DNA from: Burkholderia sp. BCC0322
GTDB taxonomy: Bacteria; Pseudomonadota; Gammaproteobacteria; Burkholderiales; Burkholderiaceae
NCBI RefSeq assembly: GCF_902833045.1
Contig: NZ_CADFDU010000005.1
Span: 248,583-312,582 of the forward strand
DNA: 64,000 nucleotides
Direction: 5' to 3'
Positions within the stretch are counted from its first letter, which is position 1. Each line of letters opens with the position of its first letter. A program made the position numbers and the translations under genes. The notes beneath the pieces are model-generated. The model did not search any database, had not been told where the DNA came from, and was given only the letters and a program-made list of their open reading frames with translations. This document shows, one piece after another, positions 19,850-39,835 of this stretch.

Positions 19850-20131
19850 GTATCACTCTTCAGGTTGAGTACACACATGATAGCGGTTTCAGCGGAAAAT
19901 TTTGAGGAAATTCTCTTCCACGACGCGTTTTGTTGTCGATAAGACGACACGGGACTGCTTCGAACACCTGAAAAGTGTGTCATGTTTGAGAAATCGTAGA
20001 GGCTTACCCGGAGACTTTTAACGGCAGCGGCACGTCGCTTTGACCGTTCCCGGCGGGTTTTCTTCTTGAAGACAAGCGGCGCAAACTTAACTACGCTTTA
20101 CATTTTTTCTGAAGTATCGGGGAATTCACCC

Positions 20132-20620
20132 ATGAACAGAGACGATAAGCTGAGCCGGATCGCGGCCGAATTCGGCTTCAATCCGGACGAGGAAATCAGG
20201 ATCGGCGGAAAGTACAGGCCCGTTCTGGTCGACGGGAGCACGGCCTACATTGCCGGTCAGATTCCGCGGATCGGCGATGTGGTGCATTTCGTTGGCGTAG
20301 TGGGGGAATCCGTTTCGCTCGACGAAGCGCGCCGGGCCGCCGGCGTATCGGCGCTGCGTGCGCTCTCGCTGATCAGGAAGCACTGCGGCACGCTCGACGC
20401 GATCGCGACGGTGCCGCGCATCACCGTCTATGTGCGAAGCGCGGCTGACTTCACGATGCAAAGCGAAGTGGCTGACGGCGCATCCGATGTTCTGTACGCG
20501 GTGCTTGGCGACGCAGGCGTCCATACGCGCTCGTCGGTCGGCGTGCTGCAATTGCCCAAAGGCGCGTCGGTGGAAACGGATTTCATTTTCGGGTTGAAGC
20601 ATGGCGATGCCGATCGCTGA
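20132..20620 (+). CDS. RidA/YjgF-family protein
   Basis: A 162-residue member of the RidA (YjgF/YER057c/UK114) family, whose founding members hydrolyse reactive enamine/imine intermediates from PLP enzymes. STAYIAGQIPR, the LRALSLIRKHCGTLDAIATV block and a C-terminal GVLQLPKGASVETDFIFG are typical. The usual catalytic arginine position near residue 100 appears as YVRSAADF, with Arg present. It starts at 20132 after GGGGAA. It stands alone, so the partner enzyme is unknown. Confidence 0.85.
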   Translation: MNRDDKLSRIAAEFGFNPDEEIRIGGKYRPVLVDGSTAYIAGQIPRIGDVVHFVGVVGESVSLDEARRAAGVSALRALSLIRKHCGTLDAIATVPRITVYVRSAADFTMQSEVADGASDVLYAVLGDAGVHTRSSVGVLQLPKGASVETDFIFGLKHGDADR

Positions 20621-21411
20621 CTGCAACAGGTCGCATCTCGCGGGTGCGTAGGTTAGCGAAACATTCAGGTATCCGGCGCACGTCGTGCCTGCGAGTGACA
20701 ACGGGCACCTGCAATGCCGAAAGAAAATGAAACGGCTGGCGAACGAATTCGAGACGTCGCTCGACGAAGAGGATCTCGCGAAGGTTCAGGCGGCATTCGA
20801 TACCTGTGATGCGAACCTGCGCGGTGGGGGGGGAAGGTGGGCTGCGCTGTCGTGCGACCTGCATCGAGACGATCTCGCTCGTCGAGCAAGGGCGGGCGGA
20901 CGCTGCCGTGACCGACGCATTCGGCGTACGGCGCTCCACGTTCGCGCTCTTAGTCGTCGCGCATGGGGGCCGTGCACTACGCCCGTGCACGCCACACATC
21001 CGCGCGTCCTGTCTACCCGACGGCAGTGCACTGACTGCGCGCCGTTCAAGCGGCCGGTGCGATGGCACCTCATCGCCGGCCGGCAACCGCATACCTGCCG
21101 CGCGTCCCCGGGCTTCCCGTAACAACTGGAAATCACCGTCCCGCCAATCTCGCCCGTATCCCCACTTTGGGAGATGCGATCACCCGACAGCAAGCCTACG
21201 ATTGACCGCAGGGCATCGGGTCGGATGTCATCAGAACAAACGGACAGGCCCGCCGTTCCGTGTCGAAATCAGTGAATGCCCACGAGGTTGACTGACACAG
21301 CTTCTGCGTACGATGGCGACACGACGTGTGCGGTGAGTCGTTTGCATCGCAACACGATGGCGCGTTGATGACGGAAGGCCTGTTGTCGTATTTCGGGGAA
21401 TTTCAATCAAT
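20621..21411. other. Intergenic region with a possibly broken small reading frame
   Basis: This stretch is 791 bp. At 20728 a frame begins MKRLANEFETSLDEEDLAKV and stays protein-like for about 32 codons up to a run of eight G (20826-20833), after which it turns into low-complexity arginine-rich translation. In another frame just after the run, ETISLVEQGRADAAVTDAFG looks protein-like again. A frameshifted gene is possible but I cannot name it. The rest shows nothing. Confidence 0.35.
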
Positions 21412-21663
21412 ATGCTGGCACGAGACTATGCAGAACGAGAGCTCTCTCACATTCAGAGAATGGTCGCTCTCCTGGACAGCGAGACGAACGCTGACGATGT
21501 GTCGATGTCGGGCGCGGGGCGCGTGCGACATCCGAGCTACTGGCGCGGGCGAATCGAGGAGCTGCTGTCGGCGCCCGATGTGCCGCGCCACGTCCGGACG
21601 CTCAGCGAAGCGGTGCTCGCGAAGCTCGACGCGATGGAGATGCGGTTCGCGACGATGAAGTAA
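21412..21663 (+). CDS. Small hypothetical protein (83 aa)
   Basis: Not assigned to a family. The translation is balanced and protein-like: two amphipathic helical halves, MLARDYAERELSHIQRMVAL and HVRTLSEAVLAKLDAMEMRF, separated by a polar RVRHPSYWRGRIEELLSAPD. It has no signal or membrane segment. GGGGAA lies about 11 bases before the ATG. The codon usage matches neighbouring genes. It is convergent with hisC, whose end is 21 bp away. Confidence 0.6.
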   Translation: MLARDYAERELSHIQRMVALLDSETNADDVSMSGAGRVRHPSYWRGRIEELLSAPDVPRHVRTLSEAVLAKLDAMEMRFATMK

Positions 21664-21684
21664 ATACATCGTCGGATGCGGCGC

Positions 21685-22848
21685 TTACATGCGCTCCATC
21701 GCGTTGCCGACCGGATGGCCGGTCGCTTGTCCGGGCGTCATCACGTCAAGCAGGGCCGCGCGAAACGCAGCCATCTCCGCAGCGGTGCCGATGGACACGC
21801 GAAGATACGCCGGCGGCCCGGACTCGCGAATCAGGACGCCGTGGCGCAGGAGTCCGCTCCAGATCCGGTGCCGATCCGCAAACTCGCCGAACATCACGAA
21901 GTTGGCATCGGAATCGGCTACCGTGAGGCCCAGGCCACGCAGCCAGCGGACGGTCGAATCGCGTTCGGCCTTGATGGTCTCGACTTGCGACAGCATCTCG
22001 TCACGCGCGGCCGGCGCCGCGCAGGCCGCTGCCTGGGTAAAGGCGGACAGGTGGTAGGGCAATCGAACCAGCTTCAGCGCTTCGACGACCGCCGGCGCGC
22101 ACGCGCAATACCCGACGCGGCCGCCCGCGAACTTGAACGCCTTGCTCAACGTGCGGGTGACGACGAGCCGCGGATGCTCGGGCAGCAGCGTCACCGCGCT
22201 GGGGACGCCGTGACGCCGGAACTCCGCATAAGCTTCGTCGACGACGACCACGCCCGGCGCGACGTCGAGTATCGCGCGGATATCGTCGATCGGCAGCGCG
22301 GTGCCGGTCGGGTTGTTCGGCGACGTCAGCAGCACCACGCTCGGCTGGTGCTCGCGCATGCTGTCGAGCGCCTGACCCCGATCCAGCGCGAAATCCCGGG
22401 TGCGCGGCAACGTATGCAGGCGCGTGAAAGTCGTGCGGCAGTATTCGTCATACATGGGATACGCGGGCGTGAAGGCCAGCGCCGAACGCCCCGGGCCGCC
22501 GAATGCCTGCAGGATCTGCTGGATCACTTCATTCGAGCCGTTGGCCGCCCAGACGCGCGAGGCGTCGACCGTCACGCCGGTGTCGTGCGTCAGATACGCC
22601 GCCAGATGCGCTCGCAGCTCGGCAAAGTCGCGATCGGGATAGCGGTTCGCCGCGCGCGCCGCGTCGGCCACCGCGGTCGCGATGCGCTCGACGAGCCCGG
22701 GCGACGGCGAATACGGATTCTCGTTGACGTTCAGGCGGACCGGCACATCGAGCTGCGGCGCCCCGTACGCGTGCTGCAGCTTGAGATCCTCGCGCAGCGG
22801 TAAATCCGGCAAGGCGATTGCTTTCCAGGGTTGTGGCATCGAAAACAC
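21685..22848 (-). CDS. hisC: Histidinol-phosphate aminotransferase
   Basis: PLP-dependent class I/II aminotransferase of 387 residues, converting imidazole-acetol phosphate to histidinol phosphate in histidine synthesis. Visible: RLNVNENPYSPSPGLVER (substrate region), LLTSPNNPTGTALP, VVDEAYAEF and the PLP-lysine motif TLSKAFKFAGGRVGY. It is not in a his operon here. Family members may act on aromatic substrates instead, but the leader upstream carries four consecutive His codons and an attenuator, which strongly supports a histidine role. It is probably a second copy, the main one being in the his operon elsewhere. Confidence 0.9.
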   Translation of the reverse strand: MFSMPQPWKAIALPDLPLREDLKLQHAYGAPQLDVPVRLNVNENPYSPSPGLVERIATAVADAARAANRYPDRDFAELRAHLAAYLTHDTGVTVDASRVWAANGSNEVIQQILQAFGGPGRSALAFTPAYPMYDEYCRTTFTRLHTLPRTRDFALDRGQALDSMREHQPSVVLLTSPNNPTGTALPIDDIRAILDVAPGVVVVDEAYAEFRRHGVPSAVTLLPEHPRLVVTRTLSKAFKFAGGRVGYCACAPAVVEALKLVRLPYHLSAFTQAAACAAPAARDEMLSQVETIKAERDSTVRWLRGLGLTVADSDANFVMFGEFADRHRIWSGLLRHGVLIRESGPPAYLRVSIGTAAEMAAFRAALLDVMTPGQATGHPVGNAMERM

Positions 22849-22893
22849 TCCATACGGGTTCGATTGATCGGCGCGGCGGGTTTATGAGGCGGC

Positions 22894-22923
22894 AAAAAAC
22901 AAAAAAGGCGCCGGAGGCGCCTT
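22894..22923 (-). terminator. Intrinsic terminator in the hisC leader
   Basis: On the minus strand AAGGCGCC and GGCGCCTT (22905-22923) form an 8-bp stem with a TCC loop, followed by TTTTTTGTTTTTT. It lies between the leader peptide and hisC, 46-75 bp upstream of the hisC start. It would stop transcription before hisC unless an upstream pairing prevents it. Confidence 0.88.
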
Positions 22924-23005
22924 GGTTGTCGTCTTGATCGGGCATTCACCCGACGCAATTGCTAGATGCGAAACGAACCACGGCGCAACCGGGGGCGGCC
23001 GTGGT
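22917..23005 (-). promoter_or_regulatory. Alternative RNA pairings of a histidine attenuator
   Basis: Minus-strand RNA segments: region 1 ACCACGGC (22998-23005, inside the His codons), region 2 GCGCCGTGGTT (22976-22986), region 3 AACCAAGGCGC (22917-22927) and region 4 within the terminator. Region 2 can pair with region 1 over 8 bp. It can instead pair with region 3 over 10 of 11 bp, which would break the 3:4 terminator. A small hairpin TCGGG/CCCGA (22938-22953) lies between 2 and 3. The leader stop codon is downstream of region 2, so an unstalled ribosome would mask region 2 and let the terminator form. Confidence 0.82.
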
Positions 23006-23054
23006 GATGGTGCAGCGAGAGCGTGGTGTTTCGAATCGTCATGCGCCGCATCAT
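22962..23054 (-). CDS. hisL: Histidine leader peptide (HHHH)
   Basis: Short leader read on the minus strand. ATG codons lie at 23054, 23051 and 23042 and the TAG is at 22962-22964, giving 26 residues from the last ATG or 30 from the first. The sequence includes LSLHHHHGRPRLRRG. The four His codons (CAC CAT CAC CAC) occupy 23001-23012. Their position overlaps attenuator region 1, as in enterobacterial hisL. No strong Shine-Dalgarno is visible, so the exact start is unsure. This frame is too short to be found by ordinary gene calling. The symbol is by analogy. Confidence 0.8.
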   Translation of the reverse strand: MMRRMTIRNTTLSLHHHHGRPRLRRGSFRI

Positions 23055-23256
23055 GGCATGCCGTGATCCGGATGAAAAGCGATCGGCATCGCGTGTGCCG
23101 GAAAAACGGCCATTACAAGCGGCCATTACATCAGACGATAAACGGTAACAAACGTGGTATTTCGATCAAGCGCAAACGAGTGATTCAAACGTTGGCGCCG
23201 ATTGACTAAGATGCGCAGAAGACGTTCGACAAAAACGCACGGCGCGGGGTGGCCAG
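23055..23256. promoter_or_regulatory. Divergent promoter region of hisC leader and LuxR gene
   Basis: This 202 bp must contain the promoters of both transcripts. On the minus strand a TTGTTA followed 17 bases later by TAATGG is a possible but weak promoter for the leader. An 11-bp direct repeat CGGCCATTACA occurs at 23107-23117 and 23120-23130, a 13-bp period that could mark a binding site. Confidence 0.45.
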
Positions 23257-24348
23257 ATGCAAATGAACGGATTGATTCCATCGGCATGGGTCGATGACGT
23301 CTATGCTGCGGCACTCGGCGATCAGCGATGGGAAACGGTGCTGGACGGGCTGCGATCGTGGGTCGGCGTGCGCATGGTCACGCTGCTGTCGTTCGACGAC
23401 GCGGCGCGGGTGCCGGCGATCGAGCAGGCGGCGGGTGACGACGCGTCATGGGTCGCCGCGTGTTACCACGCCTACAACACCGAGTTCTATCTGTACGACC
23501 CGGTCGTGCCGGTTGCCGCCAACTGGCCGACGGGCCGCTGGTTCGAGGACGTCAAGCACCTGTCTGCGCACCAGCGCGCGCACAGCGCGTTCTACCAGGA
23601 ATTCCTTCACCCTTACGGGCTCGGCAGCATCTCGGGCCTGTACATCCTTCGCAGCGAGGGCGCCGGCGCATTCCTCAGCGTCCAGAGCGGCCCCGAATCG
23701 CAAGGCCTTTCCGATGACCAGCGCCACGCGATCGAAACCATGGGAATGCACATCGGCCGCGCGCTGCAGATCCAGGCACGGATCGGCGCGCTCGAGGCAC
23801 GCGTGGCCGCCGCCGAATCGGCGCTCGACGCGATTCCGGTGCCGGTGTTCCTGCTCGGCGAGCAGCGTGAGCTGCGCTACACGAATCGCGCGGCCGATCA
23901 ACTGCTCGCGGCGGAACCGGCGCTGCGGGTCGTGAACGGGCGATTCGCGCCGGAAGGCTGTGTCGACGATGCGCAATGGCGGCACGCGTACGCGCGCGGC
24001 GGGCTGCTGTTGCGGCGCTCGACGGGCGAGCCGCTGCCGCTGGCGCTGATGCCGGTGCCCGAGCAGTCGCGGCTGATGCGAGAGCGGCCGGGCGTCGCGA
24101 CGTTGATGACGGCCGCCGACCTGCGTTCGCCGTCGGCCCGCGCGCAACGGCTGCGCGTGTTCTACGGGCTGTCGTCGGCCGAAGCCGATCTCGCCGTGCT
24201 GCTGTGCTGCGACGGGCTGTCGCCGCAGGAGTGCGCCGGGTTGCGCGGCGTGTCGATCGGCACGATCCGCACGCAGATCAAATCGATCTACGCGAAGACG
24301 GCAGTGGCGCGCGCGGCGCAACTGACATCGCTCGTCATGCAGACGTGA
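23257..24348 (+). CDS. LuxR-family transcriptional regulator
   Basis: A 363-residue regulator with a long N-terminal sensory part and a C-terminal LuxR/FixJ helix-turn-helix (about 295-360), visible as LSSAEADLAVLLCCDGLSPQ and GVSIGTIRTQIKSIYAKT. A PAS-like segment lies at about 185-290 (IPVPVFLLGEQRELRYTNRA). It lacks the acyl-homoserine-lactone-binding signature, so it is not a quorum-sensing LuxR. It diverges from hisC. The next gene downstream in the same direction is the TRAP transporter, 506 bp away, which is a possible target. Confidence 0.85.
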   Translation: MQMNGLIPSAWVDDVYAAALGDQRWETVLDGLRSWVGVRMVTLLSFDDAARVPAIEQAAGDDASWVAACYHAYNTEFYLYDPVVPVAANWPTGRWFEDVKHLSAHQRAHSAFYQEFLHPYGLGSISGLYILRSEGAGAFLSVQSGPESQGLSDDQRHAIETMGMHIGRALQIQARIGALEARVAAAESALDAIPVPVFLLGEQRELRYTNRAADQLLAAEPALRVVNGRFAPEGCVDDAQWRHAYARGGLLLRRSTGEPLPLALMPVPEQSRLMRERPGVATLMTAADLRSPSARAQRLRVFYGLSSAEADLAVLLCCDGLSPQECAGLRGVSIGTIRTQIKSIYAKTAVARAAQLTSLVMQT

Positions 24349-26410
<2,062 letters not shown>

Positions 26411-26414
26411 CGCC

Positions 26415-27767
26415 ATGGAACTCGCGATCCTGTCCGTCAGTTTTCTGATTTTCCTCTTGCTGGGCGTGCCCGTGTCGTTCGCGCTCGGGATAGCCTGCGT
26501 GCTGACCTATATGGTCGAAGGCTTGCCGATCGCGACCGCGATGCAGGCCATGATCTCGGGGATGAATGCGTTCTCGTTCCTCGCGGTGCCGTTCTTCATC
26601 TTCTCCGGCGAACTGATGCTGCACGGCGGCATCGCGGACCGGATCCTGCGCTTCGCGCAGGCAACGGTCGGCCACTTCCGCGGCGGCCTCGGGATGGCGA
26701 ACGTCGTTGCCTGTACGCTGTTCGGCGGCGTGTCGGGCTCGCCGACCGCCGATACGTCGGCGATGGGCGGCGTGGTGATTCCGCTGATGAAGCGCGAAGG
26801 CTACAGCGCCGCGTACGCGGTCAACGTGACGACGCATGCGTCGCTCGCCGGCGCGCTGATGCCGACGTCGACCAACATGATCATCTACGCGTTCGCCGCG
26901 CAGGGCATCACCGGCATGCTGCACGGCCAGCCGGTGAGCGGCGTGTCGATCGGCGACCTGCTGTTCTCGGGGCTGCTGCCGGTGTTGTGGGTGATGGGCT
27001 TCGTGCTCGCCGCCGCGTACTGGCAGGCCGTGCGCCACGGCTATCCGCGCCGTGAAGACGGTTCGTCCGCGCTGCCCGCGTTTCCCGGCTGGTATGCGGT
27101 GCTGCGCAGCTTCGTCGGCGCGGTGCCCGGCCTGATGGTGATCGCGATCATCCTCGTGTGTGTCGCGAAGGGGATCGCCACCGCGACCGAAGCGGCCGCG
27201 ATCGCCGTCGTGTACTCGCTCGTGCTGACCGCGGTGGTCTACCGGACGCTGACGGCCGAGAAGCTGCGCCGCGCGCTGTCGCATGCGGCGCGCACGACGG
27301 GTGTCGTGCTGCTGCTGATCGCGGTGTCCAACATGCTGCGCTTCCAGATGTCGTACCTCGAGATCCCGGATGCGATCGAAGGGCTGCTGAAGCAGTCGAC
27401 CGCAGCGCCCTGGCTGATGCTGCTGTACATCAACATCATCCAGGTGTTCCTCGGCACGTTCGTCGACATGGCCGCGCACATCCTGATCACGACGCCGCTG
27501 TTCCTGCCGATCGCGATGGCGTGCGGCGTCGGGCCGGTGCAGTTCGGGATAATGCTGCTGCTGAACTGCTCGCTCGGCCTCGTGCACCCGCCGATCGGCT
27601 CGGTGCAGTTCGTCGGCTGCGCGATCGGCAACGTGTCGATCGGCGAGACCACGAAGATGGCGTGGCCGTATTACCTCGCGATCTTCAGTGCGATCAACAT
27701 CGTCACGTACCTGCCGTTCTTCTCGACCTGGCTGCCGAGCCTGATCAGCGGGCACGCGGTGTTCTGA
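26415..27767 (+). CDS. dctM: TRAP transporter large permease (DctM family)
   Basis: Ion-coupled transport subunit of 450 residues with about a dozen hydrophobic segments in the inner membrane. The family's Gly/Ser-rich loop FGGVSGSPTADTSAMGGVVI, TEAAAIAVVYSL and NCSLGLVHPPIGSVQF are all present. It is the last gene of the dctP-Q-M operon, ending just before a strong hairpin that separates it from the convergent afc operon. Confidence 0.92.
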   Translation: MELAILSVSFLIFLLLGVPVSFALGIACVLTYMVEGLPIATAMQAMISGMNAFSFLAVPFFIFSGELMLHGGIADRILRFAQATVGHFRGGLGMANVVACTLFGGVSGSPTADTSAMGGVVIPLMKREGYSAAYAVNVTTHASLAGALMPTSTNMIIYAFAAQGITGMLHGQPVSGVSIGDLLFSGLLPVLWVMGFVLAAAYWQAVRHGYPRREDGSSALPAFPGWYAVLRSFVGAVPGLMVIAIILVCVAKGIATATEAAAIAVVYSLVLTAVVYRTLTAEKLRRALSHAARTTGVVLLLIAVSNMLRFQMSYLEIPDAIEGLLKQSTAAPWLMLLYINIIQVFLGTFVDMAAHILITTPLFLPIAMACGVGPVQFGIMLLLNCSLGLVHPPIGSVQFVGCAIGNVSIGETTKMAWPYYLAIFSAINIVTYLPFFSTWLPSLISGHAVF

Positions 27768-27820
27768 CTCTCCGATCGCATGCCTCGCCCGACGCGGCGC
27801 CTGACGACCGAGGTTGTCCG

Positions 27821-27844
27821 GCGCCGCGGTTGTTTCCGCGGCGC
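27821..27844. terminator. Hairpin between the convergent TRAP and afc operons
   Basis: GCGCCGCGG (27821-27829) and CCGCGGCGC (27836-27844) form a perfect 9-bp GC stem with a TTGTTT loop. On the plus strand TTGTTCAATTC follows, a weak T-tract suited to ending the TRAP transcript. It is 31 bp from the end of the last leftward afc gene and may serve both directions. Confidence 0.7.
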
Positions 27845-27875
27845 TTGTTCAATTCACCGCAGGGCACCTGAACGC

Positions 27876-28118
27876 TCAATCCTGCCGCGTATCCGGCTCG
27901 CCGTGACCGCCAGCCGACCGGTCATCACGCCAATCCTCAAGCTCGCGCCACAGCGCCGGGCGCGCATGATCGCGCGGCGGCAGCCGGATCACGTAGGCCA
28001 CCCCTCGCACATTGACCACGACGCCCGAGTCGGGCAGCGTGGCCGGGATGCCGGAGAACGGCGGCTCGGCATCCGGTTCGGAAGCGGTGCCCGGGCCGGG
28101 CGGGTGTCGAAGGGTCAT
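27876..28118 (-). CDS. Small hypothetical protein (80 aa) at the end of the afc operon
   Basis: Not recognised. A proline- and acid-rich N-terminus is followed by a core SGVVVNVRGVAYVIRLPPRD and a charged tail rich in Asp, Arg and Gly. It has no signal or membrane segment. The ATG at 28118 follows GGAG and lies 32 bp after the FAD-oxidase stop, so it is probably the last cistron of the operon. It could be overlooked because a longer unrelated frame covers the same bases. Confidence 0.6.
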   Translation of the reverse strand: MTLRHPPGPGTASEPDAEPPFSGIPATLPDSGVVVNVRGVAYVIRLPPRDHARPALWRELEDWRDDRSAGGHGEPDTRQD

Positions 28119-28150
28119 GCGAATTCTCCGTGGCGCCGCGCAACGGCGCA

Positions 28151-29569
28151 TCAATAGCGGACACGCCCGATCAGACCCAGCGGGTCGACGGCGTGCTGGA
28201 CGGCGGCGGCGACCTGCCGTTGTGCGGCCGGCACATGCTTGCGGTAGTACGCGACGTTGACCGGCCCGACGCCATGCTCGGCGCTGAAGCAGCCACCGGC
28301 CCGCACCACGCGGTCGTACAGCGCGCCGCGCAGCGCCACCTGCTGCAGCGGCCCGTAGCGTTCCGCACTGGCATGCGGGATCGACACGACGAGATGACAG
28401 CCGCCGTCGCCGAAATGCCCGAACGCGTAACAGCGCAGCGACGGATGCGCGGCCGCGATCCATTGCTCGGCATCCGCGACGAACGCGGCCAGTGCGCTGC
28501 GCGGAAACGACACGTCGAACGACAGCGGCAGGCCATCCTGCGCAACCGCGGCCGGCAGTGCATCGCGGATTCGCCAGAACCGTTCGGCCGGCGCGCAGGC
28601 CGCGTCGAGCACCACGCGTTCGCCCGCCAGCGCGTCGAGTGTCGCGATCGTGCGTTCCTCGAGCAGCGCATCGAGCCCCGCCATGCCGGTCGCGATCTCG
28701 ACCAGCGCATAGCACCCAGCAGCGTCGGCGTCGAACGGAATGTGTGACGCCGGAAACGCGGCGGCGACGCAGCCGACGGCCGCCGCCGACATGAATTCGA
28801 ATGCCGACAGCATCTCGCCGAACACACGCTCGAACGCGAGCAGGCCGGCGAGCGCCGCGTCGTACGACGCGAACGCGACGAACGCGGCGCACGACGATCG
28901 TTCGAGCGGCGCGAGGGCGAACGACACGGCCGTCACGAGCCCGTTGGCGCCGTTCGCGCCGATGAAGCATTGCGTGACGTCGAAGCCCGCGTTGCGTTTG
29001 CGCAGCGGCGCGAGCGCGTCGAGCACGGTGCCCGCCGCATCGGCGAGCACGACTTCGACGCCGAGCACGTTGCGGCGCACGTCGCCGTACTTGATCAGGC
29101 GGCTGCCGCCCGCGTTGGCGCCGACGAGGCCGCCGGCCGCTGGATCGCTGCCGAGGTCGATCGGCAGGCAGAGGCCGGCTTCGGCCGCCACGCGGTTGAT
29201 GTCGGACAGCCGCACGCCGGCCTCGACCGTGATGCTGCGATTCGCCGCGTCGAACGCGCGAACGGCACGCATCCGGTCGAACGACACCACGCATTGCGTG
29301 CCGCTGCGATCGGGCACGGCGGCGCCGACGAGCCCGGTGCGCGCGCCCTGCGCGACGAGCGCGATGCGGTGCGCGACGGCGATCCGTGCGAGCGCGCTCG
29401 TGTCGGCGGTCGAGGCCGGCCGCGCGACGCCGAGCGCAATGCCGCCGTGGAGCGTCACGTCCGTCGTGTAGGGCTCGCATGCGTCGTCGGACGCACCGTC
29501 GAGCCAGCCGTCGCCGAGCGTCGCGGCGAGCGCGTGCCGCTGCGCGGTGCGGTCGGGCAACGCGCTCAT
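28151..29569 (-). CDS. afcF: FAD-linked oxidase (GlcD/D-lactate dehydrogenase family)
   Basis: Flavoprotein oxidase/dehydrogenase of 472 residues. The N-terminal FAD-binding (PCMH-type) domain covers about 30-215 and contains LPIDLGSDPAAGGLVGANAG. The C-terminal FAD-oxidase domain contains AFGHFGDGGCHLVVS and GCFSAEHGVG, the usual histidine-bearing blocks. Relatives oxidise 2-hydroxy acids; here the substrate is probably a lipid-derived hydroxy acid made by the cluster. In B. cenocepacia the matching gene, BCAS0201 (afcF), is reported to contribute to biofilm and virulence. That assignment is by position and family, from memory. Confidence 0.85.
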   Translation of the reverse strand: MSALPDRTAQRHALAATLGDGWLDGASDDACEPYTTDVTLHGGIALGVARPASTADTSALARIAVAHRIALVAQGARTGLVGAAVPDRSGTQCVVSFDRMRAVRAFDAANRSITVEAGVRLSDINRVAAEAGLCLPIDLGSDPAAGGLVGANAGGSRLIKYGDVRRNVLGVEVVLADAAGTVLDALAPLRKRNAGFDVTQCFIGANGANGLVTAVSFALAPLERSSCAAFVAFASYDAALAGLLAFERVFGEMLSAFEFMSAAAVGCVAAAFPASHIPFDADAAGCYALVEIATGMAGLDALLEERTIATLDALAGERVVLDAACAPAERFWRIRDALPAAVAQDGLPLSFDVSFPRSALAAFVADAEQWIAAAHPSLRCYAFGHFGDGGCHLVVSIPHASAERYGPLQQVALRGALYDRVVRAGGCFSAEHGVGPVNVAYYRKHVPAAQRQVAAAVQHAVDPLGLIGRVRY

Positions 29570-29571
29570 CG

Positions 29572-30114
29572 TCAGCCGGCCCGCACGAGCTGCTTGCGCA
29601 GTCGGCCGCGCACGACGACCAGCGCGATCAGCGGCACGACGCCGCCCCACAGCGGACTGTGGCGCATCGTGATCGACACCGCGAGCGCGACGACGGTGAC
29701 GGCGAGCAGCACGATCGACAGCGAGCGCGCCCGGGCGTGGTCGACGAACGTGCCGTCGACGAAGCCGCCGTCCGACCACGCGGTATGCACGATGCCGACG
29801 ACCAGCACGCAGACGAGCATCGCGGCCGGCCCGAGTTCCTCGCCCCACAAACGGCTACCTGTGGGCGATACGAGCGCGAGCACCGCGCCGATCACGAGGA
29901 ACAGGTCGACGCCGATCGCGATGCTGTTGCGGTCCGCGCGGCGGATCAGCCACGCGCCGTGCACGAGCGCGAGCACGCCGCCGATCAGGAACGCGTGGGT
30001 CCAGCGCACGTCCGGCTGCTCGGGGCCGAGCCGGCCGTAGAAAAGGAACACGATCGCCGGCAGGAAGTTGCTCGCGTGCAGCAGGTAGTCGGTTATGGGA
30101 TTGCTCGATTTCAT
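29572..30114 (-). CDS. Uncharacterised membrane protein
   Basis: A 180-residue integral membrane protein with about five hydrophobic segments, for example FLPAIVFLFYGRLGPEQ and SLSIVLLAVTVVALAVSI, and no recognised family motif. It lies between the ABC-2 exporter and the FAD oxidase (2-bp gap), so it may assist export or form a membrane anchor for the oxidase. Three tandem copies of an 8-base unit lie just upstream of its start. Confidence 0.8.
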   Translation of the reverse strand: MKSSNPITDYLLHASNFLPAIVFLFYGRLGPEQPDVRWTHAFLIGGVLALVHGAWLIRRADRNSIAIGVDLFLVIGAVLALVSPTGSRLWGEELGPAAMLVCVLVVGIVHTAWSDGGFVDGTFVDHARARSLSIVLLAVTVVALAVSITMRHSPLWGGVVPLIALVVVRGRLRKQLVRAG

Positions 30115-30130
30115 CGGGTGGTTCTCCTTC

Positions 30131-30154
30131 GTCGAAACGTCGAAACGTCGAAAC
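30131..30154. repeat. Tandem repeat GTCGAAAC x3
   Basis: Three exact adjacent copies of an 8-base unit in the 53-bp spacer before the membrane-protein gene (start at 30114). A unit count change would alter the spacing between the upstream gene and this ribosome site. No effect is proven. Confidence 0.75.
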
Positions 30155-30167
30155 AGCGGGCGACGCG

Positions 30168-31247
30168 TCAAGCGTCGTGCCAGCGGAACAGCCGCACGGC
30201 GGCGAACAGGAACAGCGCCGTGCTCGCGGTCATGCCGAGCAGTTGCGGCGCGAGTTGCGCATACGGGGCGCCGTCGACCAGCGCGCCGCGCAGCGCGACC
30301 GCGAACTGGTTGGTCGGCAGGAACGCGAGCACCGCCTTCAGCCACGCCGGCGCGTCGTGCATCGGGATCGTCAGGTCGCTGAAGAACAGCAGCGGGTAGT
30401 AGGTGACGTTGCAGGCGAGTTCGGCGGCGGCCAGCGATTGGGTGCGGCTCGCGAGCAGCACGCCGATGCTGAGCACCATCGCCGCGCCGAGCAGCACGAT
30501 CGGCAACGCGCGCAGCCCGTCCGGCGTCGCGATCGGCAGCGCGATGCCGAACGCGACGCGTGCGACCGTCAGCAGCACGAGCGCCGACAGCGCCATCATC
30601 ACCATCCGCGCGACGATCAGCGCGGCGAGGAACACGCCGCGCGAGACCGGGAAGCACACGTACAGCTTGAACGTATTGCGTTCGCGCAGCGACGCGATCG
30701 AGGTCGTCGTCGAATTGAGGCCGATCGCCATGAACGCCATCACGAGAATGCCGGTCGCGAAGAACGCGCCATAGTCGAACGGGCGGCGCGCCGGCGCCGC
30801 GTTCTCGTAGCGCACCTGCGCGGCGGGCACCCCGAGCCGCTGTGCGGCGCAGCGCGCGAGCGCGATCTCGACGACGCGCGACGCGGCCTTGACCGCGAGC
30901 GAGCCGTTGAAGTCGTAGCGGATCGTCGCGGGCGTGCGCTCGTCGGTGCCGAGCACGACGGTCACGCGATCGGCCGCCGCGCCGCGGCCGTCGAACGTTG
31001 CCTTCACCGTGTCGCTGTGCGAGAGGCTGGCGACGATCTGCGCTTCGCAGGCGCGGCTGTACGGCGTTGCGCCGCCGGGCACGTCGAACGCGATGTCGGC
31101 CGTGCCGAGCGAGCCCGAGCCGCCGAACGCGAACAGCATCACGCTCAGCAGGAACAGCGGGAACACGAGCGTCCAGAACAGCGACGAGCGGCTGCGCAGA
31201 TAGCCGAGCAGCTCGTTGCGCACCAGGATCAGGAACACCTTAGTCAT
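30168..31247 (-). CDS. ABC-2 type transporter permease
   Basis: Inner-membrane exporter subunit of 359 residues. One N-terminal membrane segment (LFWTLVFPLFLLSVMLFAFG), a large periplasmic domain (about 45-175) and five C-terminal membrane segments are the usual ABC-2 layout for drug or lipid exporters. Its start overlaps the ATPase stop by 8 bp, so the two form one transporter. Probably exports the afc product or an intermediate. Confidence 0.86.
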   Translation of the reverse strand: MTKVFLILVRNELLGYLRSRSSLFWTLVFPLFLLSVMLFAFGGSGSLGTADIAFDVPGGATPYSRACEAQIVASLSHSDTVKATFDGRGAAADRVTVVLGTDERTPATIRYDFNGSLAVKAASRVVEIALARCAAQRLGVPAAQVRYENAAPARRPFDYGAFFATGILVMAFMAIGLNSTTTSIASLRERNTFKLYVCFPVSRGVFLAALIVARMVMMALSALVLLTVARVAFGIALPIATPDGLRALPIVLLGAAMVLSIGVLLASRTQSLAAAELACNVTYYPLLFFSDLTIPMHDAPAWLKAVLAFLPTNQFAVALRGALVDGAPYAQLAPQLLGMTASTALFLFAAVRLFRWHDA

Positions 31248-32253
31248 GGGAAGGGCCCTCGGTACAGAGGCGCAGCAGGTCGCCCGGCGTGCTCGGCGCG
31301 AGCGCGAGATGCTGGATGCCCTGTTCGCCGACGATCCGGTGCACGTTCGGATGCAGCGTCGCGTCGCCGAACACCTCGACGACATGCGTGGCCGATACGC
31401 GCACCCCGGTCACGCCCGGCAGCGCCGCGAGGCGCTTGCGCAGCGCGCGCGCATCGGCTTCGTCGCGGCAATGCAGGACCGCGCGCGCATCGCCGACCAG
31501 CTCGGCGCGCAGCGCGTTCTTGTCGCCCTGGTAGCGCACGCCGCCGTCGCGCACCCACACGAGATCGTCGACGACGGCGAGTTCCTCCTCCGCGTGGCAG
31601 ATCATCGCCACGCTCGTGCCGCGTGCACGCTGGCGCAGCAGGTCGATCACGACGCCCGCATAGCGGCGGTCGAGGCCGGTGAACGGTTCGTCGAGCACGG
31701 CGAGTTCGGGCCGGTGCGCGAGCGCGACGTAGAGATCGACGCGCTGGCGCTGCCCCTTCGACAGCGCGCGGCAAGGCTTGTCGAGCAGTTCGGCGATGCC
31801 GAGCGCATCCGTGACCGCCGCATCCGTGCGCACGTACATCGCGCGGTGCAGCGCGACGATTTCCGACACGCGCAGATGGTCGGGATACTCGACCTTCTGC
31901 AATTGCGCGCCGATGCGCCGCAGCGACGGCGTATCGCGCATGAAGCGCGTGGCCGGCACGTCGAGCACGCGCACGTCGGTGCCGCCGCGCCGGAAGCCGA
32001 GCAGCGTCTCGAGCAGCGTGGTCTTGCCGGAGCCGTTCGGCCCGACGATCGCGGTGACGGCGCCGAGCCGGAACCGCACATGCCGTGCGGAAAAACGGAA
32101 ATCGCCGGCCGCGACGTCGATCGCGCGCGCACCGAGCGCCGCGCCCGGCGCGTGCGCATCGGGCAGCGGCGGCGTGGCCGTGCGCAGCGGCCGGTCGAAC
32201 GCGGTGTGCGGGCCGAATAGCGCGCGCACGGAGGCGAGGAACGAATCGCTCAT
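31240..32253 (-). CDS. ABC transporter ATP-binding protein (exporter)
   Basis: ATPase of 337 residues that powers the adjacent ABC-2 permease. Walker A GPNGSGKTT (about 71-79), signature LSKGQRQRV, Walker B LAVLDEPFTGLD and the switch His in MICHAEEE are all intact. The first 55 residues and the last 100 extend beyond the core fold; the C-terminal extension resembles the accessory domain of drug-exporter ATPases. It follows the TauD gene after 12 bp. Confidence 0.88.
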   Translation of the reverse strand: MSDSFLASVRALFGPHTAFDRPLRTATPPLPDAHAPGAALGARAIDVAAGDFRFSARHVRFRLGAVTAIVGPNGSGKTTLLETLLGFRRGGTDVRVLDVPATRFMRDTPSLRRIGAQLQKVEYPDHLRVSEIVALHRAMYVRTDAAVTDALGIAELLDKPCRALSKGQRQRVDLYVALAHRPELAVLDEPFTGLDRRYAGVVIDLLRQRARGTSVAMICHAEEELAVVDDLVWVRDGGVRYQGDKNALRAELVGDARAVLHCRDEADARALRKRLAALPGVTGVRVSATHVVEVFGDATLHPNVHRIVGEQGIQHLALAPSTPGDLLRLCTEGPSHD

Positions 32254-32265
32254 CGTTGCATCCTG

Positions 32266-33342
32266 TCAGTCGAACAGCATGACCTGCGTGTCGCGCGCGC
32301 CCCGATACGGGTTGCGGCCGTGCGCGACCAGCATGTTGTCGACGACGAGCACGTCGCCGGCCTGCCACGGGAACGCGAGCTCCTCGTCGTCGAACGCGTC
32401 GTAGATCGCGACGAGATCGTCGAACGGCATCGGCGACCCGTCGCCGTAGCGGATCTCGTACGGGAACGCCGCGCGCCCGGCGTACATGCGTTGCAGGTAG
32501 CGGTAGCTGAGCTCGCCCATCGAACGCGGGTTCGGGTGTTGCGCGCTCGCCTGGTTGAACCACACCGTCTCGCCGGTGCGAGGATGCGTGCGCAGCGCGC
32601 TGCCGACGTGCGACACGGTCACGCTGCCGTCGTCGAGCCAGCGGCAGCCGACGCCGCGTTCCGCGCACAGCCGCTCGACCTCGTCGCGCTCGCACGTGCC
32701 GAACGCGTCATGCCACGGCCGGTGGTATTCGGCGAACGGCAGGTTCGGGTTGGCGGCGAGGCCGTCCGCGCGATCGCCGGGTGCCGCGAAATTGCGCAGG
32801 TACATCACGCCGCGTTCGGCGAACCGTTCGCGCAGCGTGGCCGGCACGCGCGCCGTCACGCGCCGCATGTCGCAGATCGGCGTCTCGCCGCCCGCGTCGG
32901 CCGGCAGCCGGCAATAGAATGCGACGAGGCGCGGGAACGCGGGCATGTAGGCCATCTCCTGGTGCAGCCCGATCTTGAACGGCGGCGGCATGCGGGTCGA
33001 TTCGTAGACCTGGCCGTCGATCTGCTTGCGGGGCGCCGCGCCCGCCGTGTAGCCGTTCGCGTGCGCCGGATACAGCGCGCCGAGGCGGCCGAACGCGGCG
33101 GTGTCGGGTACCGCGAAGCCGCGCCACAGCAGCGCACCGCACGCGTCGAGCAGCGTGTCGATCGTGTCGAGCCGCGAGCGGTACCATGCGACGAACATCT
33201 CCGGCGAGGTCGCGAGTTCGGCGCTGCGCGGCGTCACGCACAGCGGCAGCGTCGCGCCGGGCGCGACCGCCGAGCAGTGCACGTCGTCGGCGCCGAGCCG
33301 CGCGGCGGCGTGTGCGGCGAGGAAGGCGAGGTCGGTCATCAC
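32266..33342 (-). CDS. TauD/TfdA-family Fe(II)/2-oxoglutarate oxygenase
   Basis: Non-heme iron oxygenase of 358 residues in the TauD/SyrP group, which hydroxylates, halogenates or desaturates specialised metabolites. The iron triad is visible: His127 and Glu129 in LHQEMAY and distal His341 in VAHGRNPYRG. The carboxylate (not Ala/Gly) at position 129 argues for hydroxylation or desaturation rather than halogenation. The following Arg in RGARDTQVMLF would bind 2-oxoglutarate. Start and the upstream methyltransferase stop are directly adjacent. Confidence 0.87.
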   Translation of the reverse strand: MMTDLAFLAAHAAARLGADDVHCSAVAPGATLPLCVTPRSAELATSPEMFVAWYRSRLDTIDTLLDACGALLWRGFAVPDTAAFGRLGALYPAHANGYTAGAAPRKQIDGQVYESTRMPPPFKIGLHQEMAYMPAFPRLVAFYCRLPADAGGETPICDMRRVTARVPATLRERFAERGVMYLRNFAAPGDRADGLAANPNLPFAEYHRPWHDAFGTCERDEVERLCAERGVGCRWLDDGSVTVSHVGSALRTHPRTGETVWFNQASAQHPNPRSMGELSYRYLQRMYAGRAAFPYEIRYGDGSPMPFDDLVAIYDAFDDEELAFPWQAGDVLVVDNMLVAHGRNPYRGARDTQVMLFD

Positions 33343-34005
33343 TCAGGCCAGCGCCGGTTTCTTCAGCAGGATCTCGAAGCCGAGCGCGCCGAGCCCGGCG
33401 CTCGGGCTGTAGATCGACGCGACTGCCGCGAGACCGGCTTCGGCGACGAGCGCATGCGCTTCGTCGAGCGTGATCTTTTCCTCGACGTGGGTCGGCGGAT
33501 AGTCGGCGGCGGCGCGCATCTCGGTGAAGCGGTCGAGCAGGTGCTGCGGCGCGTCGCGGCGCATGTCGTGGACGAGCGCGATGCCGCCCGGCTCCAGCAC
33601 GCGATACATCTCGGTGAGGCTCAACGCCTTGTCGGGCAGGTGGTGCAGCGTCGCGCGGCCGACGGCCATCGTCAGCGTGCCGTCGTCGAACGGCAGCGCG
33701 AGCGCGTCGCCCACGCGCATCTCGATCGTGTCGTCGAGATCGAGTTCGTGGATGCGCGGGCGGCCTTCGTCGAGCATCGCCGGATCGAGGTCGATGCCGA
33801 CGTAGCGCCAGCCGCGCATCGCCGGATCGGTCGCGAGCCGTACCGGCACGACGCCGGTGGCCGTGCCGATGTCGGCGATCACGCCGGGCGTCATCCCGCG
33901 CGCGAGCTGGCGGATGCGGCTGATGAACAGCAGGTCCCACGGTTCAAGCGTTTCGGTGGCGAAGCGATCGTAGTCGTTCGCCGGGCGCAGGTTCTTGAGC
34001 AGCAT
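33343..34005 (-). CDS. SAM-dependent class I methyltransferase
   Basis: A 220-residue Rossmann methyltransferase. The glycine-rich SAM site appears as VIADIGTATGVVPVRLA (motif I), YVGIDLDPAMLDEGR (acidic motif II) and VGDALALPFDDGTLTMAVGR (motif III region). Similar to UbiE/Methyltransf_11 types. It probably methylates an oxygen, carbon or nitrogen of the cluster's product; the sequence does not say which. It starts 35 bp after the citrate-synthase-like gene. Confidence 0.86.
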   Translation of the reverse strand: MLLKNLRPANDYDRFATETLEPWDLLFISRIRQLARGMTPGVIADIGTATGVVPVRLATDPAMRGWRYVGIDLDPAMLDEGRPRIHELDLDDTIEMRVGDALALPFDDGTLTMAVGRATLHHLPDKALSLTEMYRVLEPGGIALVHDMRRDAPQHLLDRFTEMRAAADYPPTHVEEKITLDEAHALVAEAGLAAVASIYSPSAGLGALGFEILLKKPALA

Positions 34006-34040
34006 GACGTTCCTTTTGCTGAGTGCGGAGGGAGGAAGGT

Positions 34041-35297
34041 TCACAGCCAGCCGACCGGCACGGCGGCCAGCAGCCGTCGCGCGGTCGCGCTGTTGACGCC
34101 GAAGGCAGGGCGGCGCCGGCGTTCGACCGCATGCGCGGCCATCGCCGCGATGCGCGCGCCGAGCCCGACGCCGACGCCCCACGACGGTGCGGCGACACCG
34201 AGTTCGAGCAGCGTCGCGGCCGTCAGGAAATCGATGTTCGGCCGCAAGGCGCGGCGGGCGCCGGCTTGCGCGCAGCACGCGTCGAACAGCGTCACGTACG
34301 CGCCGTCGAAGCCTTGCGCCGCGAACCGCGCGCGCATGTGCGGCGGACGCGGGTCTGCCACGAACAGCGGATGGCCGAAGCCGTACAGCGTGTGCTTCGC
34401 GTCGAGCGCCGCATCGATCGCCGCGCGCCCGGCCGCGTCGAGCGCGGCGGGCGGTGCGTCGGCGCCGCCCGGGACCGACCGCGCGAGCGCGGCGAGCCAG
34501 TGCATCGCTTCGAGTGCGGCGCCGACGTGGGACGGTCCGCTCGCGAGGAAACCGGATGCGATCGCCTGCGTGAGCGTGACGCCGGTGCCGATCGCGACAC
34601 GCGGCGCGAGCACGGTCGGCGTGATGTAGCCGAAGCCGGCGTGCCACGCGACGAGCAGCATGTCCATCGCGGCTTGCGCCGGGGCATCGGTGCGCGTCGC
34701 GCCGGTCAGCACGAGCATGCGTTGTGCGTGGTTCGACGTGGCGGCGAGCGCTGCGCCGGCTGCGTCGTCGCGCACGGCGAACGGGCGGCCTTCGATCGCC
34801 GCGTGCAGCAGGAACGGCGCGGCGGCCGCGCACAGCAGCATCGTGTCGAGATCGGCGTCGCCCGGCGCTTCGCCTTGCATGCGGGCCGTCACGTCGTCGA
34901 AGCCGCGCAGCAGGCCGGATGCGGCCGCGAACACCGGCGCGACGCCTGCCGCGCCGAGATCCGCTGCGACGGATTGCGCGGCCGAGCCGGGCGCCAGTGC
35001 ATCGGCGAACGCCGCGAGCCGCGTGCCGATTGCCGCCTCGTGCGTGCGATGCGCGGCGCTGCCGGGCGCGACGTCGAACCACAGGTGCGCGAGCGCGCCT
35101 TCGAACGTCGTCGCGCCGATCAGCGCGTTCAGGTCGAGATCGCGCACGCGCAGCGCTTCGGGTTCGAGCGTTGCGCCGTCGAGGTCGGTGCCGCGATGGC
35201 GAGTCGCCGGGCGGCCGAGCAGGTTGCGCGGCGCGTCGCCTGCCGCGGGGCGCGTGGCGGCCGAGGCTGTCGCGCCGGAGTCGAGGGTCGTATCCAT
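34041..35297 (-). CDS. Citrate-synthase-like enzyme
   Basis: A 418-residue member of the citrate synthase fold, which joins an acyl-CoA to a 2-oxo acid (or cleaves the product). All three catalytic positions appear kept: His257 in SGPSHVGAA, His309 in YGFGHPLF and Asp356 in RPNIDFLTAA. Overall it is divergent from housekeeping GltA. The neighbouring acyl-CoA dehydrogenase and adenylating enzymes suggest it may use a long or unusual acyl-CoA to form an alkylcitrate-like unit. The B. cenocepacia equivalent (BCAS0207) is reported to affect biofilm and virulence. Confidence 0.85.
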   Translation of the reverse strand: MDTTLDSGATASAATRPAAGDAPRNLLGRPATRHRGTDLDGATLEPEALRVRDLDLNALIGATTFEGALAHLWFDVAPGSAAHRTHEAAIGTRLAAFADALAPGSAAQSVAADLGAAGVAPVFAAASGLLRGFDDVTARMQGEAPGDADLDTMLLCAAAAPFLLHAAIEGRPFAVRDDAAGAALAATSNHAQRMLVLTGATRTDAPAQAAMDMLLVAWHAGFGYITPTVLAPRVAIGTGVTLTQAIASGFLASGPSHVGAALEAMHWLAALARSVPGGADAPPAALDAAGRAAIDAALDAKHTLYGFGHPLFVADPRPPHMRARFAAQGFDGAYVTLFDACCAQAGARRALRPNIDFLTAATLLELGVAAPSWGVGVGLGARIAAMAAHAVERRRRPAFGVNSATARRLLAAVPVGWL

Positions 35298-35298
35298 G

Positions 35299-37149
35299 TC
35301 ATTCCACCTGCGCGAGTTCTTCGCTGCTGACGCTGATCGCCGCCTGCGCCATCGCGGCGATCACGGCCGCGTGCTGGTCGACGACGGGCAGCACGTTCGC
35401 GAAGTAGTAGCGCGCGCTTTTCAGCTTGCCGCGATAGAACGCGAGTTCGGCGGGCGTGTCGGCGGTGTCCGGCGCGTCGAGCCGGCGTGCGGCGATCGTC
35501 GCCGATTCGAGCAGCACCCACGCCGACGTGACGACGCCGAACATCTCGAGAAAGCGCGTGTAGAACTGGCTGCTGCGATGCGTGTGGCCGTCCTGCACGT
35601 CGCGCGCGATGTCGTCGAGCGCGGCGGCGATGCGGTCGGCGCCCGCGCGCAGCGCGTCGAACAGCGGGCGCAGCTCCGCATGCGTGCCCGCGTGATGCTG
35701 GCGTGCAAGGAACGCATCGAGCTCGTCGCGGTAGTACTGGATCAGCCGCGAATGACGGCCGAAGCCGAGCTTGTCGCGCACGAGGTCCTGCGCCTGGATG
35801 TAGTTCGTGCCTTCCCAGATCGACAGGATCTTCACGTCGCGCGCGTTCTGCTCGACGGGGCTCGCATCGGTATAGCCGAGCCCGCCGTGCACCTGGATCG
35901 CGGTTTCGCAGATCCGCCATGCCTGGTCGGAGATGAACGCCTTGCAGATCGGCGTCAGCAGCAGCTGGAGCTTGCGATGGCGCTCGATCTCGGCCGGATC
36001 GGCATCGGGCGTGGCTTCGAGCATCGCCGCGCGCGTCGCGGTCGCGGCGAGCTTGCCGAGCAGGCCGCGGCAGCCGTCGACGCGGCTCTTCATGTCGACG
36101 AGCATGCGCTGCACGTCCGCGTGCTCGACGATCGCGACGCGTGCGGCGTGGGTGTTCGACGCGCGCTCGATCGGCCGGCCCTGCAGCCGGCGCCCCGCAT
36201 ACTCGACCGCATGCAGGTAGGCACTCGACGCGACGCCGACGCCGAACATCCCGGTGCTCATCCGCGCCTGGTTCATCAGCGGCATCAGTTGCAGCAGGCC
36301 GACGTTGCGGCGGCCGCCGAGCAGCCAGCCTTTGGTCGTGCCGTTCGCGCCGAACACGAGATGCGTGTTCGCGCAGCCCTTGAGCCCCATCTTGCGCGGC
36401 AGGCCGATGCAGTCGACATGGTTCGGCTGCAGTTCGCCGGTTTCCTCGTCAGGCCAGAAGCGCGGCACGACGAGGCACGACAGCGAGAACGAGTCGGGCG
36501 ACGCGGTGTCGATGCGGCCGAGCACGAAGTACAGCGTGTTCTCGGTCAGCTCGTGCATGCCGGCCGAGATGTAGACCTTCTCGCCATCGATCGCATAAAT
36601 GTCGCGTTCGAGCGGCGTCGCGCGCAGCGCGACCGCGGTGAGGTCGGTGCCGGCCTGCGGTTCGGTCGCACAGAAGCAGGCGTCCCAGCGGTACGCCTCG
36701 AGCGGCGCGATCAGCGCCTTCTGGTGCGGCGTGCCGTGCATCTGCAGCAGCTTGATCGCGGGGCGCGTGAAGCCGCCGTACGTCATGAACGACGGGTTCG
36801 CGCCCATGAACATCTCGTAGATCATCTGCGTGACGATCGGCGGCAGCCCGTGCGCGGTGCCGAACAGCGTGTTCGACCATTCGTCGCGAAACCGTGCCCA
36901 CAGCGCGTGGAAGTGCGACGGAATGCGCACCTGGCCGTCGTCGAGCAGCGTGCAGCCTTCGACGTCCGCCTGCTGGTAGCTGCGGCCGAGATCGAGCGCG
37001 AAATCGCGCGCACGTTCGAGCAGCGCATCGATCGACGCGCGGTCGTGCGTGCCGTACAGGCCGTGTTCCGCCAGGAACCGCTTGTCGGCCTCGAACAGTT
37101 CCCACAGAAAGAAGCGCAACTCGCGCAGGCTCACCTTGTAGGCGCTCAT
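35299..37149 (-). CDS. afcE: Acyl-CoA dehydrogenase, long form
   Basis: FAD enzyme of 616 residues that introduces a 2,3-double bond in an acyl-CoA. It belongs to the long subfamily with a C-terminal extension (FadE/DmdC-like), not the usual 380-residue type. Visible: FCATEPQAGTDLTAVALRAT (FAD and substrate loop), MSTGMFGVGVASSAYLHAVE, AIQVHGGLGYTDASPVEQ and the catalytic-base motif SIWEGTNYIQA. The B. cenocepacia counterpart BCAS0208 (afcE) is needed for rough colony form, and a catalytic-site mutant fails to complement. Shares one base with the upstream KASIII-like stop. Confidence 0.9.
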   Translation of the reverse strand: MSAYKVSLRELRFFLWELFEADKRFLAEHGLYGTHDRASIDALLERARDFALDLGRSYQQADVEGCTLLDDGQVRIPSHFHALWARFRDEWSNTLFGTAHGLPPIVTQMIYEMFMGANPSFMTYGGFTRPAIKLLQMHGTPHQKALIAPLEAYRWDACFCATEPQAGTDLTAVALRATPLERDIYAIDGEKVYISAGMHELTENTLYFVLGRIDTASPDSFSLSCLVVPRFWPDEETGELQPNHVDCIGLPRKMGLKGCANTHLVFGANGTTKGWLLGGRRNVGLLQLMPLMNQARMSTGMFGVGVASSAYLHAVEYAGRRLQGRPIERASNTHAARVAIVEHADVQRMLVDMKSRVDGCRGLLGKLAATATRAAMLEATPDADPAEIERHRKLQLLLTPICKAFISDQAWRICETAIQVHGGLGYTDASPVEQNARDVKILSIWEGTNYIQAQDLVRDKLGFGRHSRLIQYYRDELDAFLARQHHAGTHAELRPLFDALRAGADRIAAALDDIARDVQDGHTHRSSQFYTRFLEMFGVVTSAWVLLESATIAARRLDAPDTADTPAELAFYRGKLKSARYYFANVLPVVDQHAAVIAAMAQAAISVSSEELAQVE

Positions 37150-39811: not shown

Positions 39812-39835
39812 GATCGGCTCCTCTGTCTGGGTGGT

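Follow-up and report, generated by a model that had tools for sequence, protein, structure and literature searches.

A leader of the histidine attenuator type before a stand-alone hisC gene of Burkholderia, and the wider family to which it appears to belong

Introduction

How a stand-alone hisC gene, the third of its kind, is regulated is the question raised by a 64,000-nucleotide stretch of Burkholderia sp. BCC0322 DNA (contig NZ_CADFDU010000005.1, positions 248,583 to 312,582 of the forward strand; the whole stretch is referred to here as the window). Directly upstream of this gene lies a short leader which very probably acts as a ribosome-mediated histidine transcription attenuator. A complete attenuator of this kind in front of a stand-alone hisC had been proposed from the sequence of the window (the original prediction), and the leaders of orthologous genes support the proposal. 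The general enterobacterial his attenuator model comprises a leader peptide with a run of His codons, alternative RNA pairings, a terminator and a stop codon past region 2. The comparisons set out below add a wider family of such leaders, of which this one is a member and whose targets include other genes; the original prediction had not envisaged it.

In the proposed mechanism RNA polymerase would begin transcription on or beside the AUG of the leader, with a 26-residue peptide being translated during transcription. A shortage of charged tRNA-His would make the ribosome stall on the His codons and cover region 1, such that region 2 would pair with region 3, blocking the terminator and allowing hisC to be transcribed. 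When histidine is plentiful the ribosome would reach the stop codon past region 2 and cover region 2, the terminator would form and the transcript would end near 22894. The further claim that scarcity of charged tRNA-His is the sole condition under which this hisC copy is made goes too far because attenuation normally leaks.

Organization of the leader

All coordinates are those of the window, and the features of both the leader and hisC lie on the minus strand. The leader has the following parts:

22962..23042, minus strand: leader peptide open reading frame of 26 amino acids, MTIRNTTLSLHHHHGRPRLRRGSFRI, with its ATG fixed in the 26-row alignment A2
23001..23012, minus strand: four consecutive His codons, CAC CAT CAC CAC
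22995..23005, minus strand: region 1, overlapping the last His codons, partner of region 2
22976..22986, minus strand: region 2, GCGCCGTGGTT
22937..22954, minus strand: spacer hairpin separating region 2 from region 3
22917..22927, minus strand: region 3, AACCAAGGCGC, which pairs with region 2 in the antiterminator and is also the 5' arm of the terminator
22894..22923, minus strand: intrinsic terminator, stem 22923-22905 of 8 base pairs with a 3-nucleotide loop and a T6GT6 tail

The four consecutive His codons are present where they had been predicted, with 12-mers of CAY codons like this run occurring twice in the window against 0.05 expected. The other run of four CAY codons lies at 30594-30605 on the plus strand. 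The leader peptide had been put at 26 to 30 residues, of which the 26-residue form starting at the ATG at 23042 (invariant in 26/26 rows of A2) stands while the longer versions do not. As predicted, region 2 can pair either with region 1 or with region 3, both pairings being conserved in alignments, and region 3 is indeed the 5' arm of a perfect terminator. The antiterminator and the terminator, each present and conserved, are mutually exclusive by way of this common region 3, and the spaced pair of regions 2 and 3 is found once in the window against a mean of 0.00 in 100 shuffles. The leader stop codon, TAG at 22964-22962, was correctly placed beyond region 2, from which it is 11 nucleotides distant, a position that would let a terminating ribosome cover region 2; some leaders (e.g., L039) use a later stop.

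A scan of the window with Rfam returned no family at the gathering cut-off. At the leader region there were six weak, sub-threshold matches to small RNAs, driven by the terminator and not including RF00514, among them isrK, which at 21.1 bits falls short of its gathering score of 50.

Conservation of the leader and its peptide

Orthologues of the window gene, taken as matches to its HisC at E<=1e-100, were found in 22 of 65 genomes of the genus. The original prediction had proposed looking for the same leader before other Burkholderia hisC genes and had held that homologous leaders without the His run or the paired regions would speak against it. The leader precedes 21 of the 22 orthologues (20 located by a single motif and L037 by eye), and all 21 of these genus leader peptides retain at least three His residues; the sole orthologue without a leader, L041, is 5'-truncated, nothing but its 3' portion being left. 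In the 65 genomes the model R1, which was built on 19 leaders that it finds by construction, scored more than 60 bits at 29 places, which lie in 27 genomes, 21 of these places being before a window-type hisC, seven before a gene resembling HisRS and one before a remnant of such a gene. In the last case (L085, in genome G082) the leader copy has just the opening codons of the HisRS-like gene behind it, possibly as a remnant. No other hisC was found behind the leader at any of these 29 places. Two of the 20 places in the genus with lower scores (<45 bits) were read, in G014 (a HisRS-like leader with masked letters) and G034 (which looks like a terminator alone). The match L019 was set aside as a chance match.

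Of 299 genomes of the family, 59 had an R1 match at E<=0.01. All 14 places above 60 bits outside the genus were read, five lying before hisC (G111, G121, G138, G139 and G170, from genera g47, g56 and g57), six before short HisRS-like genes and three before genes for a GNAT acetyltransferase (once in G185 and twice in G276; loci L087, L092 and L099). The GNAT assignment comes from Pfam Acetyltransf_1 in the two of the three proteins that were checked, and a histidine-linked substrate for this target is possible. A search of 399 genomes of the order with R2 yielded 10 matches at E<=1e-4, one being G001 itself and six lying before a HisRS-like gene, while those in G708, G516 and G578 look like chance terminators only. 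The occurrence of the leader before HisRS-like genes supplies a second histidine-related target and so favors attenuation, as does a hisC-type leader found on a plasmid of Paraburkholderia ginsengisoli.

Most leader peptides have in common M-x-x-R-N, the His run, G-R and RRGS(L/F)R, while distant ones keep mainly the His codons, with those of Chromobacterium and Pseudomonas fragi having runs in an otherwise diverged peptide. At least three His residues are found in 28/28 hisC-type and 26/26 HisRS-type peptides, and the three GNAT-type peptides have three, three and four; an unbroken run of four or five occurs in 25/28 of the hisC type. This count of 57 peptides leaves out L170, L185, L177, L188 and L155, which were missed or misread by the script or contain masked letters; a His run is visible in all but one of them, and L188 retains CATCAC ahead of the masked letters. 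Across target genes conservation goes beyond regions 1 to 3, taking in the peptide end RRGS(L/F)R(P/I) and the bases up to the stop codon.

The pairing regions are similarly constrained. In a 19-row alignment from the genus 93.2% of cells pair for 1:2, the spacer hairpin and 3:4 (<=52% when slid by one to three columns), and 92.6% pair for 2:3 and the spacer (<=46% when slid in the same way). In a 26-row diverse alignment the corresponding values are 97.1% (slid controls <=58%) and 94.9% (slid controls <=48%).

Predicted promoter

Promoter columns were obtained from 57 leaders aligned on an ATG picked by script (the last ATG lying five or more codons ahead of the His run), that of L037 being moved by hand. 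In the window these columns correspond to the following elements:

23073..23078, minus strand: predicted -35 element TTTTCA, at the TTnnCA columns -36 to -31 from the leader ATG
23050..23058, minus strand: predicted extended -10 element (TG, then CATGAT), with a 17-nucleotide spacer from the -35 and 7 nucleotides before the leader ATG

Each majority base of TTnnCA at -36 to -31 is found in 46-48 of the 57 leaders, as is each base of TG at -16/-15 and of CAnnAT at -13 to -8, and a C at -1 from the leader ATG occurs in 52. From this conserved geometry transcription is predicted to begin at 23042 or the adjoining base, on the A of the leader AUG, which would make the leader mRNA leaderless.

A small peptide on a transcript that looks leaderless might itself be the active product. 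The leader peptide peTrpL of Sinorhizobium meliloti is reported to act in trans, and a conserved peptide of this sort, with attenuation being secondary, would be in keeping with the conservation of RRGS(L/F)R across target genes to an extent greater than regions 1 to 3 require. Part of that conservation is however accounted for by RNA pairing since region 2 encodes RRG, and the GNAT leader of G185 has an antiterminator G-C pair swapped for A-U, the pair thus being retained despite a changed residue. In addition, divergent leaders have lost the C-terminus while retaining the His codons and terminator, and a primary role in trans is considered improbable. Less probable still, to the point of being very hard to sustain, is control by another sensor (a T-box, a riboswitch or a DNA-binding regulator) with the leader merely terminating transcription. 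T-boxes and HisR do control his genes in other bacteria, according to one account (PMC9413887), but the absence of any Rfam family at gathering score in the window speaks against such an element, and the space from the predicted promoter to the terminator is taken up by the peptide and the pairing regions.

Ribosome position and the favored fold

For attenuation by a translating ribosome the fold should depend on where the ribosome stands. Folding of the minus strand had been proposed as a check, and the full-length fold (22880-23070) is only modestly stable and not extraordinary, with z -1.75 equalled by 13 of 200 shuffles; what did emerge is a switch between antiterminator and terminator according to ribosome position. 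When folding begins at 22999, as if a ribosome occupied the first His codon, the antiterminator is the minimum (z -2.52, 2/200 shuffles), and when it begins at 22952, as with a ribosome at the stop, the terminator is the minimum (z -4.29, 0/200 shuffles). The stretch ending with region 3 alone gave z -1.83 (8/200 shuffles). With the ribosome placed on each of His codons 1 to 4 in turn, the terminator in the window had an equilibrium probability of 0.00, 0.00, 0.01 and 0.71, and with the ribosome at the stop or without a ribosome it was 1.0; no value as low as the smaller of those for codons 1 and 2 came up in 50 shuffles.

Simulations were extended to 55 of 60 loci, three (L119, L186 and L087) giving no leader to the script pattern and two (L152 and L099) no run, where a run as the script defines it may also include CGY and GGY codons. 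Across the 55 leaders the equilibrium effect was in the right direction and weaker than in the window, the median terminator probability with the ribosome on the first run codon being 0.71 for hisC leaders and 0.90 for HisRS-like leaders, with shuffled controls higher at 0.97. In co-transcriptional simulation the median for hisC leaders was 0.83 with a stalled ribosome and 0.21 with one at the stop, the corresponding values for HisRS-like leaders being 0.83 and 0.46.

Several results weigh against attenuation. With the ribosome on the first run codon the terminator probability was at least 0.7 in 32 of the 55 leaders, while in the co-transcriptional simulations shuffled spacers averaged about 0.64 and only 4/55 leaders were matched or exceeded by no more than five of 100 shuffles. 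There is hardly any compensatory change, the total being one cell in the terminator-state pairing of the 19-row alignment (reached by 313/500 shuffles) and one in the antiterminator pairing of the 26-row alignment (60/500 shuffles), with none in the 19-row antiterminator or the 26-row terminator-state pairing; the percentage paired in the latter is also reached by 388/500 shuffles because little varies. The hisC leader of G138 has lost the ACC of region 3, and a strict promoter scan found no promoter. With pairing well above the slid controls and compensatory change near zero, the structural case is therefore one of conservation, position and logic and not of covariation.

These shortfalls could be taken to mean that the element is an ordinary terminator or a transcript resembling a small RNA, the His run being an accident of a GC-rich leader. 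The weak matches to small RNAs come from the terminator, the full-length fold is of modest stability, and the folding simulations over all leaders beat shuffles only in part, all of which fits such a view. It would leave the His codons, regions 2 and 3 and the terminator staying together before three unrelated kinds of gene, and the persistence of His runs where the remaining peptide has diverged (Chromobacterium, Pseudomonas fragi), without a reason, and is judged unlikely. Attenuation by the ribosome in response to charged tRNA-His is the reading retained here.

The hisC gene and its locus

The gene downstream of the leader is as follows:

21685..22839, minus strand: stand-alone hisC, histidinol-phosphate transaminase (NCBIfam PRK03317 equivalog, 3.8e-172)

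Translation most likely starts at the ATG at 22839, which has GGAG 8 nucleotides upstream (by eye), and not at an upstream GTG. Five of five genus genomes (G001, G016, G023, G082 and G031) each carry three genes above the TIGR01141 hisC cut-off, and in four of them the orthologue of the window gene is one of the three, G031 lacking it at E<=1e-100. Records of Burkholderia arboris and B. cenocepacia in the plasmid collection match window positions 20000-40000 at about 91%. The B. cenocepacia record (L153) keeps the flanks 21140-21675 and 23123-24355 with 148 other bases between them and is without hisC, leader and promoter as one block (window 21676-23122), indicating that the gene and its switch can come and go together. 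On the P. ginsengisoli plasmid (L152) the leader-bearing hisC sits between IS66-type genes.

The HisRS-like target and a candidate frameshift

Opinion is evenly balanced on a larger reading, in which the hisC leader is part of a proteobacterial regulon sensing tRNA-His and the HisRS-like gene, its most widespread target, is under two successive His sensors, the attenuator and a programmed CUU-CAY +1 shift. The HisRS-like gene (loci L164-L189 and L105-L124) lies outside the window. Its frame 0 reads M(T/S)M..RG(T/V) and later FRS(Y/H/W)LH or YRSYLH, where it mostly ends, and the rest of the gene is in the +1 frame. The +1-frame piece matches NCBIfam hisS (2.5e-29, below the cut-off), Pfam tRNA-synt_His (6.8e-11, above the cut-off) and PDB 1wu7 (1.4e-15), and motifs 2 and 3, as well as the RGLxYY region, can be aligned. 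With 185 residues the HisRS-like piece has no room for an anticodon-binding domain.

Among 398 family genomes the gene was found in 20 at E<=1e-60, and all 18 with an intact site have both the split and the upstream leader, the exceptions being a deletion in G424 and a further break in G049. A set of 26 named loci, partly from the same assemblies as the family set, is drawn from Paraburkholderia, Burkholderia, Trinickia, Achromobacter, Chromobacterium, Parachitinimonas and Pseudomonas. The leader family is mainly beta-proteobacterial, with one Pseudomonas locus among the 26. In all 26 the split is at the same site (GGAG, CTT, CAY) and the leader lies upstream (partly masked in L188), while a stop comes next after CTT CAY in 23 and is lacking in three. 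GGAG is invariant in the 26 loci (G367 of the other set has AGAG). The Leu codon of the site is CTT in 26/26 whereas the Leu eight codons earlier uses five different codons, and the Arg of the site is CGG or AGG only whereas the Arg ten codons earlier uses five.

Divergence at codon positions 1, 2 and 3 is 0.14, 0.11 and 0.48 in frame 0 before the site and 0.10, 0.06 and 0.48 in the +1 frame after it, indicating that both pieces are under protein-level selection. On this third-position pattern, with the split at the same base in 26/26 loci, a pseudogene was rejected. Homopolymer slippage was rejected as there is no run at the site, and a separate downstream start was likewise set aside, no conserved start codon being seen by eye within 45 bases past the site, although one is possible further on. 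The sequence of the site may also be compatible with a -2 instead of a +1 shift.

Relation to known systems

The candidate shift site resembles the +1 site of prfB in having a Shine-Dalgarno-like sequence upstream, CUU as the shift codon and the remainder of the gene in the +1 frame, and in the codon before CUU, which encodes Y or H in 25/26 HisRS-like loci and is usually UAY. Three Burkholderia prfB sites read CGG GGG TAT CTT TGA C, the commonest HisRS-like site being CGG AGC TAT or TAC followed by CTT CAT. It is unlike prfB in that the zero-frame codon after CUU is the His codon CAY (26/26) and not UGA. Such a site suggests programmed frameshifting at a hungry codon, in which a ribosome awaiting scarce charged tRNA-His would slip into the productive +1 frame, histidine scarcity thereby driving the shift. 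If true, this would be a natural regulatory hungry-codon frameshift, a circuit of the RF2 type re-aimed at an amino acid, and with the HisRS-like target hungry-codon frameshifting could be tested directly in a natural gene. Of starvation-specific trans-frame proteins from hungry-codon frameshifting a 2016 review states that "no examples are known" (PMC5009743). The GeneTack paper lists a +1 cluster named "tRNA synthetase" that has 215 genes and carries the label phase variation; the HisRS-like gene may be among them (PMC3711429).

A look through the open-access literature, which was not a full search, found no description of the leader or the shift site. While the mechanism, a histidine attenuator, is a known one, the family is absent from Rfam, distinct from RF00514 and linked to single paralogues. 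It offers a functional clue, a response to histidine starvation, for three paralogues (hisC, HisRS-like and GNAT). Rfam amino acid attenuators have been described as probably gamma-proteobacterial in origin and as attached to biosynthetic operons (PMC3766115).

Compared with the enterobacterial his attenuator (RF00514, His_leader), the leader is alike in its peptide with a His run, its alternative 1:2, 2:3 and 3:4 pairing, its intrinsic terminator and its stop codon past region 2 (PMC9413887). It differs in giving no match to RF00514, in having stand-alone paralogues rather than the his operon as targets and in being predicted to be leaderless. One study reports that Firmicute and proteobacterial His leaders are without sequence similarity (PMC2965389). 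It also describes the His leaders of Bacillus hisS*/hisZ, which the present family resembles in that one leader family extends over several histidine-related paralogues including a HisRS paralogue (PMC2965389), and from which it differs in that hisC and GNAT are also among its targets.
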